Source: Armatimonadota bacterium
GTDB lineage: Bacteria > Armatimonadota > Fimbriimonadia > Fimbriimonadales > Fimbriimonadaceae
Direction of reading: 5' to 3'
Length of the DNA stretch: 64,000 nt
Assembly (NCBI GenBank): GCA_016125185.1
Contig: WGMG01000009.1
Location: 98,314-162,313, forward strand
In this document: positions 14,321 to 61,762 of the stretch, piece after piece
Layout: each line of letters opens with the position of its first letter
How positions within the stretch are numbered: the first letter of the stretch is position 1
Notes under the pieces: generated by a model
Told to the model about the DNA's origin: nothing
Databases searched by the model: none
The model's input: the letters and a program-made list of their open reading frames with translations, nothing else
Program-made: the position numbers and the translations under genes

Positions 14321-14650
14321 GTTGGGATGGGGGTCCAATCAAAGTCCGAATCGACCGAGGTTCAAGGTGCGAGGCGACCCAATTTCCCTCTCCCATTTCT
14401 TGAATTGAAGGGTCCGCAGTTGTAACTGCCCCGAGCAAGCAAGGAAAGCCCGCGACTGCTACCTCAATGCCGAGGCACGGTGATTAATCCCGAATTTGTG
14501 AGCAGAGGTTCTGAGGTTCAAAAGTCATCATAGCGCCTCCAAAGGACCCACCGACATCCCGCTCACAAGGAATCCCATCCCTAAGGCAGTCTCCACCGAC
14601 AGCCAAGCCCTGACATAACATCGGCGCACTTACGAAAGCTAGCAGACGTA

Positions 14651-14784
14651 GGGCTGAAAGCCCGTTTCAAATTAGCCCAGCCCGCCAGGGCTGGGTAAAG
14701 CCAAATGAGACAAAGTCCAAGGAGTCCCGAGCGTCGGGACGACCCCGCCATTATGGCGGCCGATCCATGGGTCGCGCTCCCATG
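14651..14784. repeat. run of five hairpins in a 660-base spacer
   Basis: Successive perfect stems: GGGCT-gaa-AGCCC (14651-14663); CCCAGCCC-gcca-GGGCTGGG (14676-14695); GTCCCGA-gcg-TCGGGAC (14724-14740); CCGCC-attat-GGCGG (14745-14759); CATGGG-tcgcgct-CCCATG (14766-14784). No gene is supportable in 14278-14936. The spacer looks like accumulated palindromic elements, several of them degraded. Confidence 0.7.
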
Positions 14785-47002: not shown

Positions 47003-47110
47003 GCTTTCTGCGACCCACTTCAGGGTCGTGATTCTAGCTGGCCCCTACCCTGGGTGCAGGCACCCAGGGCTAAGGTCTGCGACCCTTTCAGGGTCGAATC
47101 CGCAGAAAGC
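47003..47110. repeat. cloverleaf-like element: three hairpins inside an outer stem
   Basis: Outer arms GCTTTCTGCG (47003-47012) and CGCAGAAAGC (47101-47110) are perfect complements. Inside are CGACCC-acttca-GGGTCG, CCCTGGGTGC-ag-GCACCCAGGG and CGACCC-tttca-GGGTCG. The pattern of two CGACCC/GGGTCG hairpins around a CCTGG-type hairpin matches the elements beside the transposase at 58595-59769, though sequence similarity is partial. Confidence 0.75.
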
Positions 47111-57629: not shown

Positions 57630-58583
57630 ATGCCGCTCGTGGACATGCCGCTCGACGATCTCCTCCAGTACAAGGGGAGGAACCCGCGTCCCAGCGATTT
57701 CGATTTCTTCTGGAACGACGCGCTCAAGGAGTTGGCCGACACCGCCCCCCTGCTGGAGATCACCAAGAAGGACTTCCCCTCCTGCTTTGCCGAGTGCTTC
57801 GAGCTTCGGTTTCGGGGCACGCGCGGCGGGAGCGTGTTCGCCAAATATGTGCGGCCCAAGGGCAAAAAGGAGTGCCCGGTGCTCCTGCGGTTCCACGGCT
57901 ACTCTGGCAATAGCGGCGACTGGCTCGGGCACCTCTCGTGGGCGGCGCAGGGCTTCGCAGTAGCGTCGATGGACTGCCGCGGGCAGGGCGGCTACTCGGA
58001 AGACACCGGTGTGTATTCGGGCATGACCCTTCGCGGTCACATCGTGCGCGGCCTGGACGGCCCGGCCGAGCAGATGTACTTCCGTAACGTGTTTTTGGAT
58101 ACGGCTCAGTTGGCGCGAGTCGTGGCCGACTTCGACGAGGTCAATCCCACGCGCATTGGGGCGACGGGCGGCTCGCAAGGCGGAGGGTTGACCTTGGCTT
58201 GCGCCGCGCTGGCGCCGGTCAAGAAGTGCGCGCCGGTCTTCCCGTTCCTGTGCGACTACAAGCGGGTGTGGGAAATGGACCTGGCCAAGGACGCCTACGA
58301 CGAACTGCGCTACTTCTTCCGCTCCTTCGACCCCCGGCACGAGCGGGAAGAGGAGATCTTTATGAAGCTGGGTTACATCGACAACCAGCACCTGGCGACG
58401 CGGATCAAGGGCGAAGTGCTGTTGGTGGGCGGCTTGATGGACACGATCACCCCGCCGAGCACGTACTTCGCGGCGTATAACCGAATCACGGCGAAGAAAC
58501 GGCACGTGATCTACCCCGACTTCGGCCACGAAGGTCTGCCGGGTAGCGACGACCTGATCTGGGAGTTCTTCGCGGATCTGTAA
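57630..58583 (+). CDS. acetylxylan esterase / cephalosporin-C deacetylase family
   Basis: 317 residues. Alpha/beta hydrolase of the AXE1 type: MPLVDMPLDDLLQYKGRN, then the loop with DFDFFWNDAL, PVLLRFHGYSG, SMDCRGQGG, the nucleophile elbow GGSQGGG, then DTITPPSTYFAAYN (acidic triad residue) and DFGHEGLPG (histidine). Enzymes of this group are hexameric and deacetylate xylo-oligosaccharides and other small acetylated sugars. No signal peptide, consistent with a cytoplasmic enzyme. The start has a weak ribosome-binding site. Downstream are the three-hairpin repeats of the transposase region. Confidence 0.92.
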   Translation: MPLVDMPLDDLLQYKGRNPRPSDFDFFWNDALKELADTAPLLEITKKDFPSCFAECFELRFRGTRGGSVFAKYVRPKGKKECPVLLRFHGYSGNSGDWLGHLSWAAQGFAVASMDCRGQGGYSEDTGVYSGMTLRGHIVRGLDGPAEQMYFRNVFLDTAQLARVVADFDEVNPTRIGATGGSQGGGLTLACAALAPVKKCAPVFPFLCDYKRVWEMDLAKDAYDELRYFFRSFDPRHEREEEIFMKLGYIDNQHLATRIKGEVLLVGGLMDTITPPSTYFAAYNRITAKKRHVIYPDFGHEGLPGSDDLIWEFFADL

Positions 58584-58594
58584 GGTCGAAGTTT

Positions 58595-58688
58595 GATGCG
58601 ACCCACAAGGGGTCGGTTCGGGGTCACGCCATCCAGGGTCTGAGCTACGCGCCGACCACCTGGCTACCAGATAGGACCCTCCGGGTCC
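58595..58688 (+). repeat. three-hairpin element, A-type copy 1
   Basis: Starts GATGCGACCCACAAGGGGTCG and ends GGACCCTCCGGGTCC. Hairpins: CGACCC-acaag-GGGTCG; a central imperfect one around CCAGGG to CCTGG; and GGACCC-tcc-GGGTCC. It is about 94 bases. A-type copies are inverse in orientation to B-type ones. Confidence 0.85.
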
Positions 58689-58765
58689 GCCCGCTCAATG
58701 AATCCAGAGTCAATCCAAGGGCTATCAAATTGCTAACCGATGGGAGTTCGCCTGCAGAATTCACC

Positions 58766-58851
58766 GATCCGAAGGATCGTATCTGGTAGCCAGGGTGTGC
58801 TTGCACCCCTGGACTTGCCACCCCAACAAAACGACCCGGATGGGTCGCATC
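58766..58851 (-). repeat. three-hairpin element, B-type copy 1
   Basis: Starts GATCCGAAGGATC, contains CTGGTAGCCAGGGTGTGC and CTTGCACCCCTGG, and ends CGACCCGGATGGGTCGCATC. Hairpins: GATCC-gaa-GGATC; CCAGGgtg-tgctt-gcacCCCTGG; CGACCC-ggat-GGGTCG. It is about 86 bases. Confidence 0.9.
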
Positions 58852-58970
58852 AAATCCCTCACAATTGTCGAACAATAGTGAGAAAGACGTCAGCGAAGCT
58901 GGGATTCACCTGTGCGATATCAAACCACAAACGCGCTTGACCACCAGAAACGTGCCTCACGACCGAGCCC

Positions 58971-59056
58971 GATCCGTAGGATCGTATCAGGTAGCCAGGG
59001 TGTGCTTGCACCCCTGGACGAGCCACCACAAAACCACGACCCGGATGGGTCGCATC
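58971..59056 (-). repeat. three-hairpin element, B-type copy 2, beside the transposase
   Basis: Same layout as copy 1 with GATCCGTAGGATC as first hairpin. It ends two bases before the transposase stop codon, so it lies directly at the 3' end of that gene. Confidence 0.9.
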
Positions 59057-59058
59057 AA

Positions 59059-59499
59059 TTAGTCCAAAAGAGCTTCATCGAACTCAATTCCGGCATACCG
59101 AAGGAGTTCGATGAATTCTTCTCGGAACGACTTTTTCTGATGGTGCTCGGCCTGATTCTCGATGTATTTCTTCACACCGCCAAGCCGTTCTGGACTTACC
59201 GAAAAGGCACCATAACCTTCTTGCCAGGCGAAATCCCGTTGGCGCTCGCGCATCCAGTGGGACGAAGCCTTTTTGACTTCCCTCACAAGATCTGAAACGC
59301 TCTGAGTCGTCCTCATTCCAAACAGGAGATGAACGTGGTCGGCAACCCCACCAACGATGACCGATTGCGCCCCGAGTCCATTGACCGTTCCACCGAGGTA
59401 GCGGTGAACCTCATCAATGACGTCGGGGTGGAACGACGGATGCCGCCCCTTGGTGCTATACACGACATGGACGTGGAGGCTGGCATATGTCGAAGGCAT
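59059..59499 (-). CDS. REP-associated tyrosine transposase (IS200/IS605 Y1 type)
   Basis: 146 residues. Metal-coordinating HUH motif is DHVHLLF (HVH) near 57. The catalytic tyrosine is in GGVKKYIENQAEHHQKK. The N-terminus MPSTYASLHVHVVYSTKGRH is the usual start, with the first conserved HVHVVYSTK. Length fits REP-associated tyrosine transposases (RAYTs), which lack the second gene of true IS605 and are thought to work on palindromic REP elements. Here structured elements of one kind lie on both sides: A-type 19 bases before the start codon, B-type two bases after the stop. No terminal inverted repeats, partner gene or target duplication is visible, so the gene is probably resident, not a free insertion sequence. 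Confidence 0.92.
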   Translation of the reverse strand: MPSTYASLHVHVVYSTKGRHPSFHPDVIDEVHRYLGGTVNGLGAQSVIVGGVADHVHLLFGMRTTQSVSDLVREVKKASSHWMRERQRDFAWQEGYGAFSVSPERLGGVKKYIENQAEHHQKKSFREEFIELLRYAGIEFDEALLD

Positions 59500-59517
59500 T
59501 GTTGGGACATGTTATCC

Positions 59518-59612
59518 GATGCGACCCACAAGGGGTCGATTTGGGGGCGTACTGTCCAGGGGTCTGCGCTCCGCGCCGACCGCCTGGCTACCAGATTGGA
59601 CCCTCCGGGTCC
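59518..59612 (+). repeat. three-hairpin element, A-type copy 2, beside the transposase
   Basis: Starts GATGCGACCCACAAGGGGTCG, ends GGACCCTCCGGGTCC, about 95 bases. It begins 19 bases upstream of the transposase start codon. Confidence 0.88.
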
Positions 59613-59682
59613 TTGAACTACATGAACACCCATTCAAACGTTATCGATGACCAAACAAGGGGATCCGTCACCGGATTGGACC

Positions 59683-59769
59683 GATCCGAAGGATCGAATC
59701 TGGTAGCCAGGGTGTGCTTGCACCCCTGGAACGGACACGATTACGGCCACGACCCGGATGGGTCGCATC
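59683..59769 (-). repeat. three-hairpin element, B-type copy 3
   Basis: Starts GATCCGAAGGATCG and ends CGACCCGGATGGGTCGCATC, about 87 bases, with the CCAGGGTGTGCTTGCACCCC block in the middle. It lies 65 bases before the sialate O-acetylesterase start. Confidence 0.88.
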
Positions 59770-59833
59770 AAATCACTCAAAATCTCAAACGACTCAACCC
59801 GCCAAACCTGAGCCATAATAGAGGAACACCAGG

Positions 59834-61762
59834 ATGGTCTTAGCCAATTTCGCCCTTGGCTTGCAAATGATGTTGCGCCCGGCGCCTCTTTTCGCCGACC
59901 ACATGGTGCTACCCCGAGGTTCCTCGGTTCCCGTATTCGGCCTCGGCATCCCCGGCAAGACCGTCGAAGTCCAATTCGGCACCTTCAAATCCCAAAGCCT
60001 CGTCCAGCCCGAGGGCACCTGGAAGGTCGTGCTTCCACCCCAAGCCCCCGGTGGGCCGTTCACGATGAAGATCAAGTCGGCCGGGCAGGTGACCACCATT
60101 TCCGACATTCTCGTGGGCGACGTGTGGCTGTGTAGCGGCCAAAGCAACATGGAGTGGCCCGTCTCGCGGTGCAAGGAGGTCGACGAGATGAAGACCAAAG
60201 TCGACTCCGAGATTCGCCAGTTCCGCGTCGTGCGACAGAGCGTCGAAGCTCCCCTGCGCGAGGTGCGCGGCAACTGGGTCGTTGGTTCGCCGTCATCAAT
60301 CGGCAATTGGTCGGCCATCGGCCTCGCCTTCGCCATCGAGGTCCACCAGAAGATCAAGATTCCCATCGGCCTGATCCAAGCCACCTGGGGCGGAACCCGC
60401 ATCGAAGCCTGGATGAGCCAGCGGTCGCTTGAATCCGATCCCCGCCTGAAACCGCTGATCGACGAGTACTACGCCAATCTCACCGGATTCCAGAGCCGCC
60501 TGAACCAATGGCAGTCCGCCGCCGACGCCTGGGACGCCAAAAACGAAAAGAAGGACCCCGGCAACGCGGGATTCGACAAAGGCTGGCACCGCCCCGAATT
60601 CAACGACAAAGACTGGGCCGACATCTCGCTCCCCGAGCCCTGGGAGCAGGACGAAACCAAGGACGTGGACGGCGCGAGTTGGTACCGATTCCACTTCAAG
60701 CTCCCCCGCGACTGGGAGGGCAAGGGTCTGCGCCTCGAACTCGGATTCATCGGCAACGACGACTCGACCTACGTGAACGGTCTCAAGGTCGGTGGCACAT
60801 TTGGAAAGCTGAAGGGCCGCTCGTACTACCTCGGCCCCGGAGTGATGCGCGAGGGTGAAAACGTCATCGCCGTGCGTGTGTGGAACCGCTCCGGCGAGGG
60901 AGGAATCCTTGGCCCCAACCTCAAGCTCGGACCCACCGACGGGGGCGCCTACATGGACCTCGCCACCACCTGGAAGACCAAAAACGAACTGGTCATCGAG
61001 CCGTCCGACGACCCCGCCAACAAGCGGCCAATCCGGCCGATGGGCCCCGGCGACCGCAACGCCCCCGCCGGAGCATTCGACGGCATGATCGCTCCGATCA
61101 TCCCCTATGGAATCAAGGGTGTTCTCTGGTACCAAGGCGAGAACAACGTCGGCCAACCCGACGCCTATCGCACCGCCTTCCCCACCCTCATCGACGACTG
61201 GCGCGCCCGATGGAGCAAACCCAATCTGCCGTTCTTCTTCGTCCAACTTCCTGGCTACTCGCGGGCGGGCGAGCCCGACAAAAAGCAGTGGGCCGAACTT
61301 CGCGACGCCCAGCTATCCGGCCTCAACCTGCCGTACGTCCGCATGGTCGTCAGCATCGACCAGGTCGATCCCGACACCATCCATCCGATCAAGAAATACG
61401 AGATCGGGCGGCGATTGGCCAACCTCGCGCTGGCCCAGGTGTACGGTTCCGGCGCTTACGCCTTCAGCCCCATTATTGGCTCGGTCAAGCTCAACGGAAA
61501 CTCGGCGCGACTGATCTTCGAAAATGCCTATCGCGGACTCAAATCCGCCGACGGAAACCCGATCCAGGGCTTCGAGGTCCTGGGCGACGACGGTGAATGG
61601 CATGCGGCCACCGCCGAGATCATGAGCCCCGCGGTGGTGGTGAAGGCCAAGGGCATCGACGACATCAAGGGCGTGCGCTACTGTTGGAGCGACGACCCGC
61701 GCGGCAACCTGGCCAACAGCGCCGGATTGCCAGCGGTGCCCTTCACCCGTCAGGGTTCCTGA
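59834..61762 (+). CDS. sialate O-acetylesterase-like protein (SASA)
   Basis: 642 residues. Block I is CSGQSNMEWP (nucleophile serine near 103). A later block is WYQGENNVG, and the late DPDTIHPIKKYEIGRRLA carries the DxxH catalytic pair. Between about 235 and 370 lies an inserted beta-sandwich (NDDSTYVNGLKVGG and ENVIAVRVWNRSGEGG), as in many plant-polymer-related members. Members remove acetyl groups from sialic acids or other sugars. The N-terminal 20 residues are hydrophobic (MVLANFALGLQMML) and may act as a weak signal. The 3' end overlaps the convergent PhoPQ-activated-type gene by 13 bases. Confidence 0.92.
   Translation: MVLANFALGLQMMLRPAPLFADHMVLPRGSSVPVFGLGIPGKTVEVQFGTFKSQSLVQPEGTWKVVLPPQAPGGPFTMKIKSAGQVTTISDILVGDVWLCSGQSNMEWPVSRCKEVDEMKTKVDSEIRQFRVVRQSVEAPLREVRGNWVVGSPSSIGNWSAIGLAFAIEVHQKIKIPIGLIQATWGGTRIEAWMSQRSLESDPRLKPLIDEYYANLTGFQSRLNQWQSAADAWDAKNEKKDPGNAGFDKGWHRPEFNDKDWADISLPEPWEQDETKDVDGASWYRFHFKLPRDWEGKGLRLELGFIGNDDSTYVNGLKVGGTFGKLKGRSYYLGPGVMREGENVIAVRVWNRSGEGGILGPNLKLGPTDGGAYMDLATTWKTKNELVIEPSDDPANKRPIRPMGPGDRNAPAGAFDGMIAPIIPYGIKGVLWYQGENNVGQPDAYRTAFPTLIDDWRARWSKPNLPFFFVQLPGYSRAGEPDKKQWAELRDAQLSGLNLPYVRMVVSIDQVDPDTIHPIKKYEIGRRLANLALAQVYGSGAYAFSPIIGSVKLNGNSARLIFENAYRGLKSADGNPIQGFEVLGDDGEWHAATAEIMSPAVVVKAKGIDDIKGVRYCWSDDPRGNLANSAGLPAVPFTRQGS

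Follow-up and report, generated by a model that had tools for sequence, protein, structure and literature searches.

A three-hairpin REP-like element at the ends of subclass 1.2 Y1 transposase genes, of which the Acido-Lenti-1 RNA family is probably a part

The Y1 transposases of subclass 1.2 were described by Quentin et al. (2018, PMC6006769) as proteins near 148 aa in length that carry the motifs Y...Q..HH, DH[IV]H, and WQ. They were found mostly in Cyanobacteria and Bacteroidetes, at low copy number and with diverged copies, and were reported to be without REP and generally without the terminal structures of IS200. This lack of flanking structures is a published observation on the subclass and lies outside its protein definition. 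In REPs, GTAG guides cutting between C and T, and the Marinomonas Mb enzyme cuts between C and T and between C and A (PMC8266576). Acido-Lenti-1 was presented by Weinberg et al. (2010, PMC2864571) as a candidate structured RNA, rated "probably" RNA, and is catalogued in Rfam as RF01687, an sRNA of unknown function. Copies of Acido-Lenti-1 located downstream of Tannerella protease genes have been proposed to regulate those genes (PMC13298647). No earlier link of either Acido-Lenti-1 or subclass 1.2 to elements of the kind presented here was found in the open-access papers searched.

The window, which is the whole stretch of 64,000 nucleotides that was analyzed, comes from an Armatimonadota genome of 4.52 Mb in 13 contigs (G000). 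A cluster at 58592–59772 is composed of a Y1 transposase gene and five three-hairpin units in the order A, B, B, A, B, and its neighbors are an acetyl xylan esterase gene (57630–58583) and a SASA-type esterase gene (59834–61762). The transposase gene (59059–59499, minus strand) encodes a Y1 (HUH) protein of 146 aa and was assigned from the open reading frame, Pfam, NCBIfam, sequence motifs, and an AlphaFold model. Direct and inverted repeat searches returned two A and three B units, as claimed in the initial annotation, with the B units inverted to the A units; the units measure 91–99 bases. All five were recovered by R1, a covariance model constructed from 40 three-hairpin elements, one of which is B unit 2. 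The R1 scores were 33.2 bits for A unit 1 (58592–58689, minus strand), 36.4 bits for B unit 1 (58764–58854, plus strand), 36.6 bits for B unit 2 (58969–59059, plus strand), 36.5 bits for A unit 2 (59515–59613, minus strand), and 36.0 bits for B unit 3 (59681–59772, plus strand).

On the strand that reads GTAG, each unit consists of hairpin 1 (h1), a short linker, GTAG, hairpin 2 (h2), approximately 19–25 nt, hairpin 3 (h3), and CATC; in A unit 1, the order h1-GTAG-h2-h3 is read on the minus strand. In B unit 2, these parts are found at 58970–58984 (h1), 58991–58994 (GTAG), 58995–59017 (h2), and 59037–59052 (h3), followed by CATCAA. Hairpin 1 of the window units is either GATCC..GGATC or GGACCC..GGGTCC, hairpin 2 is of the CCAGGG..CCCTGG type, and hairpin 3 is CGACCC..GGGTCG. 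The gene is directly bracketed by one B and one A unit, as had also been claimed, with hairpin 3 innermost at both ends: B unit 2 abuts the stop codon, and A unit 2, at the upstream end of the gene, sits approximately 16 nt from the start codon with its hairpin 3 nearest to it. The sequence CTGGTAGCCAGG, with at most one mismatch, occurs 5 times in the window compared with 0.16 expected, and none of 100 shuffles reached 5. Folding of the units as single-stranded DNA gave better results than shuffles for four of them, with z values of −4.0 (B unit 1), −2.95 (B unit 2), −3.8 (A unit 2), and −2.6 (B unit 3). A unit 1 (58595–58689) folded no better than its shuffles (z = −0.55); its hairpin 2 is imperfect, and hairpins 1 and 3 are intact.

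The window protein matches Pfam PF01797 (Y1_Tnp) with 79.8 bits (E = 2.4e-22). It contains the motifs DHVH (residues 54–57), FAWQ, and YIENQAEHH, the last with the catalytic Tyr112, and the AlphaFold model (mean pLDDT 87.6) places a helix after the tyrosine at residues 125–135. The DH[IV]H and WQ motifs, a length of approximately 148 aa, and a C-terminal extension are thus all present, and by its sequence, the protein is a TnpA_Y1 of subclass 1.2. The closest folds are the TnpA proteins of ISDra2 and IS608, followed by the E. coli REP transposase. The gene had been labeled a RAYT, and this label was rejected. The NCBIfam model for REP-associated transposases (NF047646) gave 19.4 bits, far below its cutoff of 80, whereas the IS200/IS605 model (NF033573) gave 59.3 bits against a cutoff of 55, and the protein carries Y...Q..HH instead of Y...NP. 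Among 86 sampled relatives, Y...Q..HH was found in 81, the exceptions being mostly truncated proteins, and Y..NP was found in none. In the protein tree, ordinary IS200 and class 2 each form one supported group, but the IS200 group, on a very long branch, falls within subclass 1.2, so that the latter may not be a clade. A RAYT-type trait is nevertheless present at this locus, namely a GTAG-tagged flanking hairpin with dispersed copies.

There are 13 Y1 genes in this genome, 7 short ones of the window type and 6 of class 2. The short paralogues have diverged, with 41–53% identity to the window protein where compared. Their flanks have the three-hairpin arrangement with sequences that differ gene by gene, and each paralogous gene appears to coevolve with its own version of the hairpins. 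One decayed subclass 1.2 gene (L026, G000:C6:790684-794001) contains stop codons and lies beside an element with an R1 score of 40.7 bits; here, the gene is decaying while the element persists. Some of the six class-2 genes (L027–L032), including L028, are flanked by different inverted repeats, such as GGGAGGGTGGGCTT, that resemble published TIRtrons.

The general architecture around subclass 1.2 genes is hairpin 1, approximately 7 nt, xTAG, hairpin 2, approximately 21 nt, and a gene-proximal hairpin 3, with inverted copies flanking the gene. GTAG stands at the foot of hairpin 2 in the window units, and TTAG or ATAG is found there elsewhere. Genes flanked in this manner were found in at least nine phyla, with the architecture present in relatives from named genomes of Verrucomicrobiota, Planctomycetota, Acidobacteriota, Pseudomonadota, Myxococcota, Bacteroidota, Armatimonadota, Chlamydiota, and Sumerlaeota. 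An independent, strict parser that accepts only perfect stems in the order h1-xTAG-h2-h3 was applied to 85 usable flanks, from 80 loci chosen by protein similarity and 6 of this genome's own. The element was found in the expected orientation in 39 of 85 upstream flanks and, inverted, in 35 of 85 downstream flanks, compared with 9/85 and 3/85 in the wrong orientation. Shuffled flanks (0/85) and distant flanks (0/78) gave nothing, and these two controls rule out chance hairpins. Of 74 elements, 68 have 6–8 nt between h1 and xTAG, and 73 carry TTAG, GTAG, or ATAG as the tag; h2 and h3 are usually separated by 18–25 nt. Tandem arrays of h1-motif-xTAG-h2-spacer, with h3 on the last unit only, were observed at L267, L268, L279, and L156; they look as if new units had been inserted at the junction of hairpin and motif.

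The covariance model was compared across transposase subclasses. In this genome, R1 matched beside every one of the 7 short Y1 genes, although some of these had contributed rows to the model; it also matched the flanks of 24 of 29 other loci in the order, with one of these (L176) not independent of the training set. Among further subclass 1.2 loci, 17 of 30 were matched, and the other 13 showed no element at threshold. All 20 of 20 subclass 1.2 loci from Acidobacteriota, outside the training set and drawn from genomes that also hold RF01687, were matched as well. No match was obtained at the class-2 Y1 genes of this genome (0/6) or at IS200 subclass 1.1 loci (0/7). The matches near genes are oriented, plus upstream (30 versus 4) and minus downstream (24 versus 1). 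Among the three transposase subclasses sampled, these matches link the element to subclass 1.2 only. The three-hairpin elements at the gene ends contradict the published lack of REP or IS200-like flanks in this subclass.

Copies of the element are not limited to the gene ends. R1 identified at least 65 places in this genome, a lower bound because 150 of 871 candidate places were scored, and RF01687 identified 46, for a union of 108. A genome-wide count of the B-type core had been suggested in the initial annotation. Full-length, near-identical copies of the B sequence of the window were found at no place outside the locus in the genome search; elsewhere in the genome, the copies have the architecture in common and have diverged in sequence. 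Copies favor the spaces between genes, with 20 of 30 R1 places examined being intergenic compared with 129 of 520 control positions (gene calls were crude). Two solitary copies are found in the window. The first (47004–47096, minus strand) is of the TTAG type and lies upstream of and between long open reading frames (R1 59.2 bits, fold z = −4.6). The second (14649–14745, plus strand) was found by R1, and its h1-TTAG-h2 is the best RF01687 match of the genome (14650–14695, minus strand, 50.3 bits). The proposal of a distinct class of larger, multi-hairpin REP-like elements tied to the transposase is upheld far beyond this locus, because the copies are not confined to it and track the transposase subclass across genomes; neither of the two outcomes that the initial annotation had named as refuting was observed.

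A comparison of strains had also been suggested initially. Among related genomes, three congeners (G024, G026, and G031) lack the entire 1.2-kb cluster at the orthologous position. At the empty site, the two esterase genes are nearly adjacent, with 53–72 nt between the mapped ends in G024 and G026. A shared deletion could in principle produce the same site as an alternative to insertion. Gene-less pairs were found in other genomes. In a Pirellulaceae genome (G134) with 119 RF01687 matches, many of them paired approximately 158 nt apart, two inverted three-hairpin ends are joined at h3 to give gene-less units of approximately 200 nt that are repeated across the genome. This is the most numerous miniature family seen, and a gene matching it was not found in the incomplete assembly. 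At L279 (Acidobacteriota), three gene-less paired units of approximately 210 nt adjoin a gene and are very similar to its upstream end. The pairs in G134 and L279 have the form to be expected of miniature derivatives of the gene cassette. Mobilization by the transposase of the window would fit both the empty sites and the gene-less pairs. The paired elements of G134 (L247–L266) are often nested in an outer inverted repeat, GAAGTTGCA..TGCAACTTC, which seems to represent another family of repeats in G134. G022, from the genus of the window, has 42 Acido-Lenti-1 matches with no subclass 1.2 transposase gene detected; its repeats may be an orphan population or may be mobilized by something else.

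These results bear on whether the locus is an ordinary IS200/IS605 insertion sequence whose subterminal hairpins have been over-read. The NCBIfam score above the IS200 cutoff and the fold closest to ISDra2 and IS608 TnpA are what such an insertion sequence would give. However, the ends are inverted with three hairpins at each, the genes are few and diverged within a genome (the 7 short paralogues above), gene-less copies are numerous (up to 119 RF01687 matches per genome), and R1 found none of the seven IS200 subclass 1.1 loci. We therefore consider this reading unlikely.

Alignments demonstrated that RF01687 corresponds to the complementary strand of h1-xTAG-h2, with h3 outside of the Rfam model. 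At 12 of the 20 Acidobacteriota loci, RF01687 was found at the gene ends, immediately upstream or downstream, with 9 of the 12 above the Rfam cutoff; these matches fall within the R1 matches on the opposite strand. The five window units are below the RF01687 gathering threshold of 37 bits, which is reached at 16 places of this genome and at one end pair of the sister paralogue L025. The structure is shared, but part of the element family escapes the Rfam model. An Rfam search of the window units and gene loci returned nothing credible for RNA families other than RF01687. RF01687 and the gene also co-occur across genomes. In this order, a subclass 1.2 gene was found in 18 of 22 genomes with RF01687 and in 14 of 91 others. 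Among 199 Acidobacteriota genomes, the gene was found in 35 of 47 with RF01687 and in 8 of 152 others (odds ratio 52, p = 3.6e-21), values that overstate the significance because the genomes share ancestry and are not independent; the gene was undetected in the remaining 12 of the 47. RF01687 was also found in 23 of 30 named subclass 1.2 genomes and in 0 of 14 control genomes.

The element could instead be a structured noncoding RNA, as Acido-Lenti-1 is catalogued, that lies beside transposase genes by chance or regulates them. The Rfam listing and the "probably" rating of Weinberg et al. speak for an RNA, and expression could be regulated by hairpins that lie beside a start codon. However, the orientation of the element at one end of the gene is the reverse of that at the other, and therefore no single transcript strand serves both. 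The copies are repeated and paired in the manner of REPs, and the Rfam model spans h1 and h2 only and misses h3. Across 138 distinct elements, Watson–Crick pairs fill 2,475 of the 2,779 pair cells, with 28 A-C and just 59 G-T; the scarcity of G-T favors a structure at the DNA level, although the low G-T count may partly reflect the training of R1 on examples with Watson–Crick pairs only. No support was drawn from the A3 covariation counts, which are biased since their rows were picked by a parser that demands paired stems. We judge the RNA reading to be quite unlikely; the Acido-Lenti-1 "RNA" probably belongs to a mobile element made of DNA. The Tannerella copies of Acido-Lenti-1 may likewise be transposase-associated repeats. 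Finally, the hairpins could be transcription terminators or insulators that have built up in intergenic spaces independently of the transposase. This agrees with their mostly intergenic placement but is highly improbable, given that the hairpins of the window units are not followed by a T-run and that the fixed spacing, xTAG tag, paired motif, and restriction to one subclass are unexpected of terminators.

A further feature of the elements is a repeated motif. Within one element, the short stretch between h1 and xTAG is similar to the one that immediately follows h3. The likeness is 3.78 of 6 matches compared with 3.15 ± 0.12 for permuted partners (0 of 5,000 permutations), and in a held-out set it is 3.48 compared with 3.14 ± 0.11 (9 of 10,000 permutations). 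The dinucleotide CA is at least 2-fold enriched both after h1 and after h3. This motif may mark the sites at which the transposase cuts.

Considering the architecture, orientation, subclass link, dispersal, gene-less pairs, empty site, and identity with Acido-Lenti-1, we propose that the five units are copies of a three-hairpin REP-like element that serves a subclass 1.2 Y1 transposase as its recognition ends, with a probability of roughly 0.78. The transposase would bind the element as folded single-stranded DNA, with xTAG at the foot of hairpin 2 in the guide role that GTAG has in REPs. Cutting would then take place at the CA-rich motif after h1 and h3, perhaps between C and A, one of the two dinucleotides at which the Marinomonas Mb enzyme cuts. 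Such cutting would spread either the gene cassette or miniature elements in which the two ends are joined and the gene is missing. The balance of the evidence leans toward a broader proposal, that subclass 1.2 is a further lineage of REP-forming single-strand transposases in many phyla with its own three-hairpin class, in which xTAG guides cutting at the motif repeated after h1 and h3, and that Acido-Lenti-1 is a DNA element and not an RNA.

A transposase subclass that had been described without a substrate thus gains a likely one and, with it, a testable function. An Rfam RNA family that is still annotated in genomes and credited with possible regulatory roles is reinterpreted. Within the Y1 family, REP-like systems would not be restricted to the RAYTs but would extend to the IS200-like members, and the repeated motif in the more complex end of this element is a direct clue to the choice of cut site.

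Relative to IS200/IS605 (IS608 and ISDra2, subclass 1.1), the system shares the TnpA fold, the HUH and tyrosine motifs, and hairpins with a 5' guide tetranucleotide. It differs in having inverted three-hairpin ends in place of single subterminal hairpins, many gene-less copies, and diverged short paralogues in place of a near-identical multicopy gene. Subclass 1.2 is also scarce on plasmids, with two clear cases among the best matches listed, both on Bacteroidota megaplasmids. TIRtrons and their TIRYTs (Di Nocera et al. 2013, PMC3733652) likewise have Y1 genes between long inverted repeats, some of them self-complementary, but their proteins are RAYT-like class 2 and their repeats are different; the class-2 genes of this genome are without an R1 match. 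Acido-Lenti-1 has h1, xTAG, and h2 in common with the element, on the complementary strand, but is catalogued as an sRNA, whereas the element is transposase-associated DNA and has h3 in addition. The subclass 1.2 of Quentin et al. agrees in protein motifs, length, low copy number, and diverged copies, but was described as having no REP and a narrower range, whereas the genes examined here have elaborate ends and are far more widely distributed. The REPtrons and REPINs with TnpAREP (RAYT) of E. coli and Stenotrophomonas also have a Y1 HUH gene of low copy number and diverged sequence between inverted palindromes, a GTAG-like tag at the 5' foot of the hairpin, and dispersed gene-less copies that are often paired. 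Those systems use a single hairpin and a class 2 protein with Y...NP, whereas the element presented here has three ordered hairpins, a TTAG, GTAG, or ATAG tag, a motif repeated after h1 and h3, and a subclass 1.2 transposase with Y...Q..HH.
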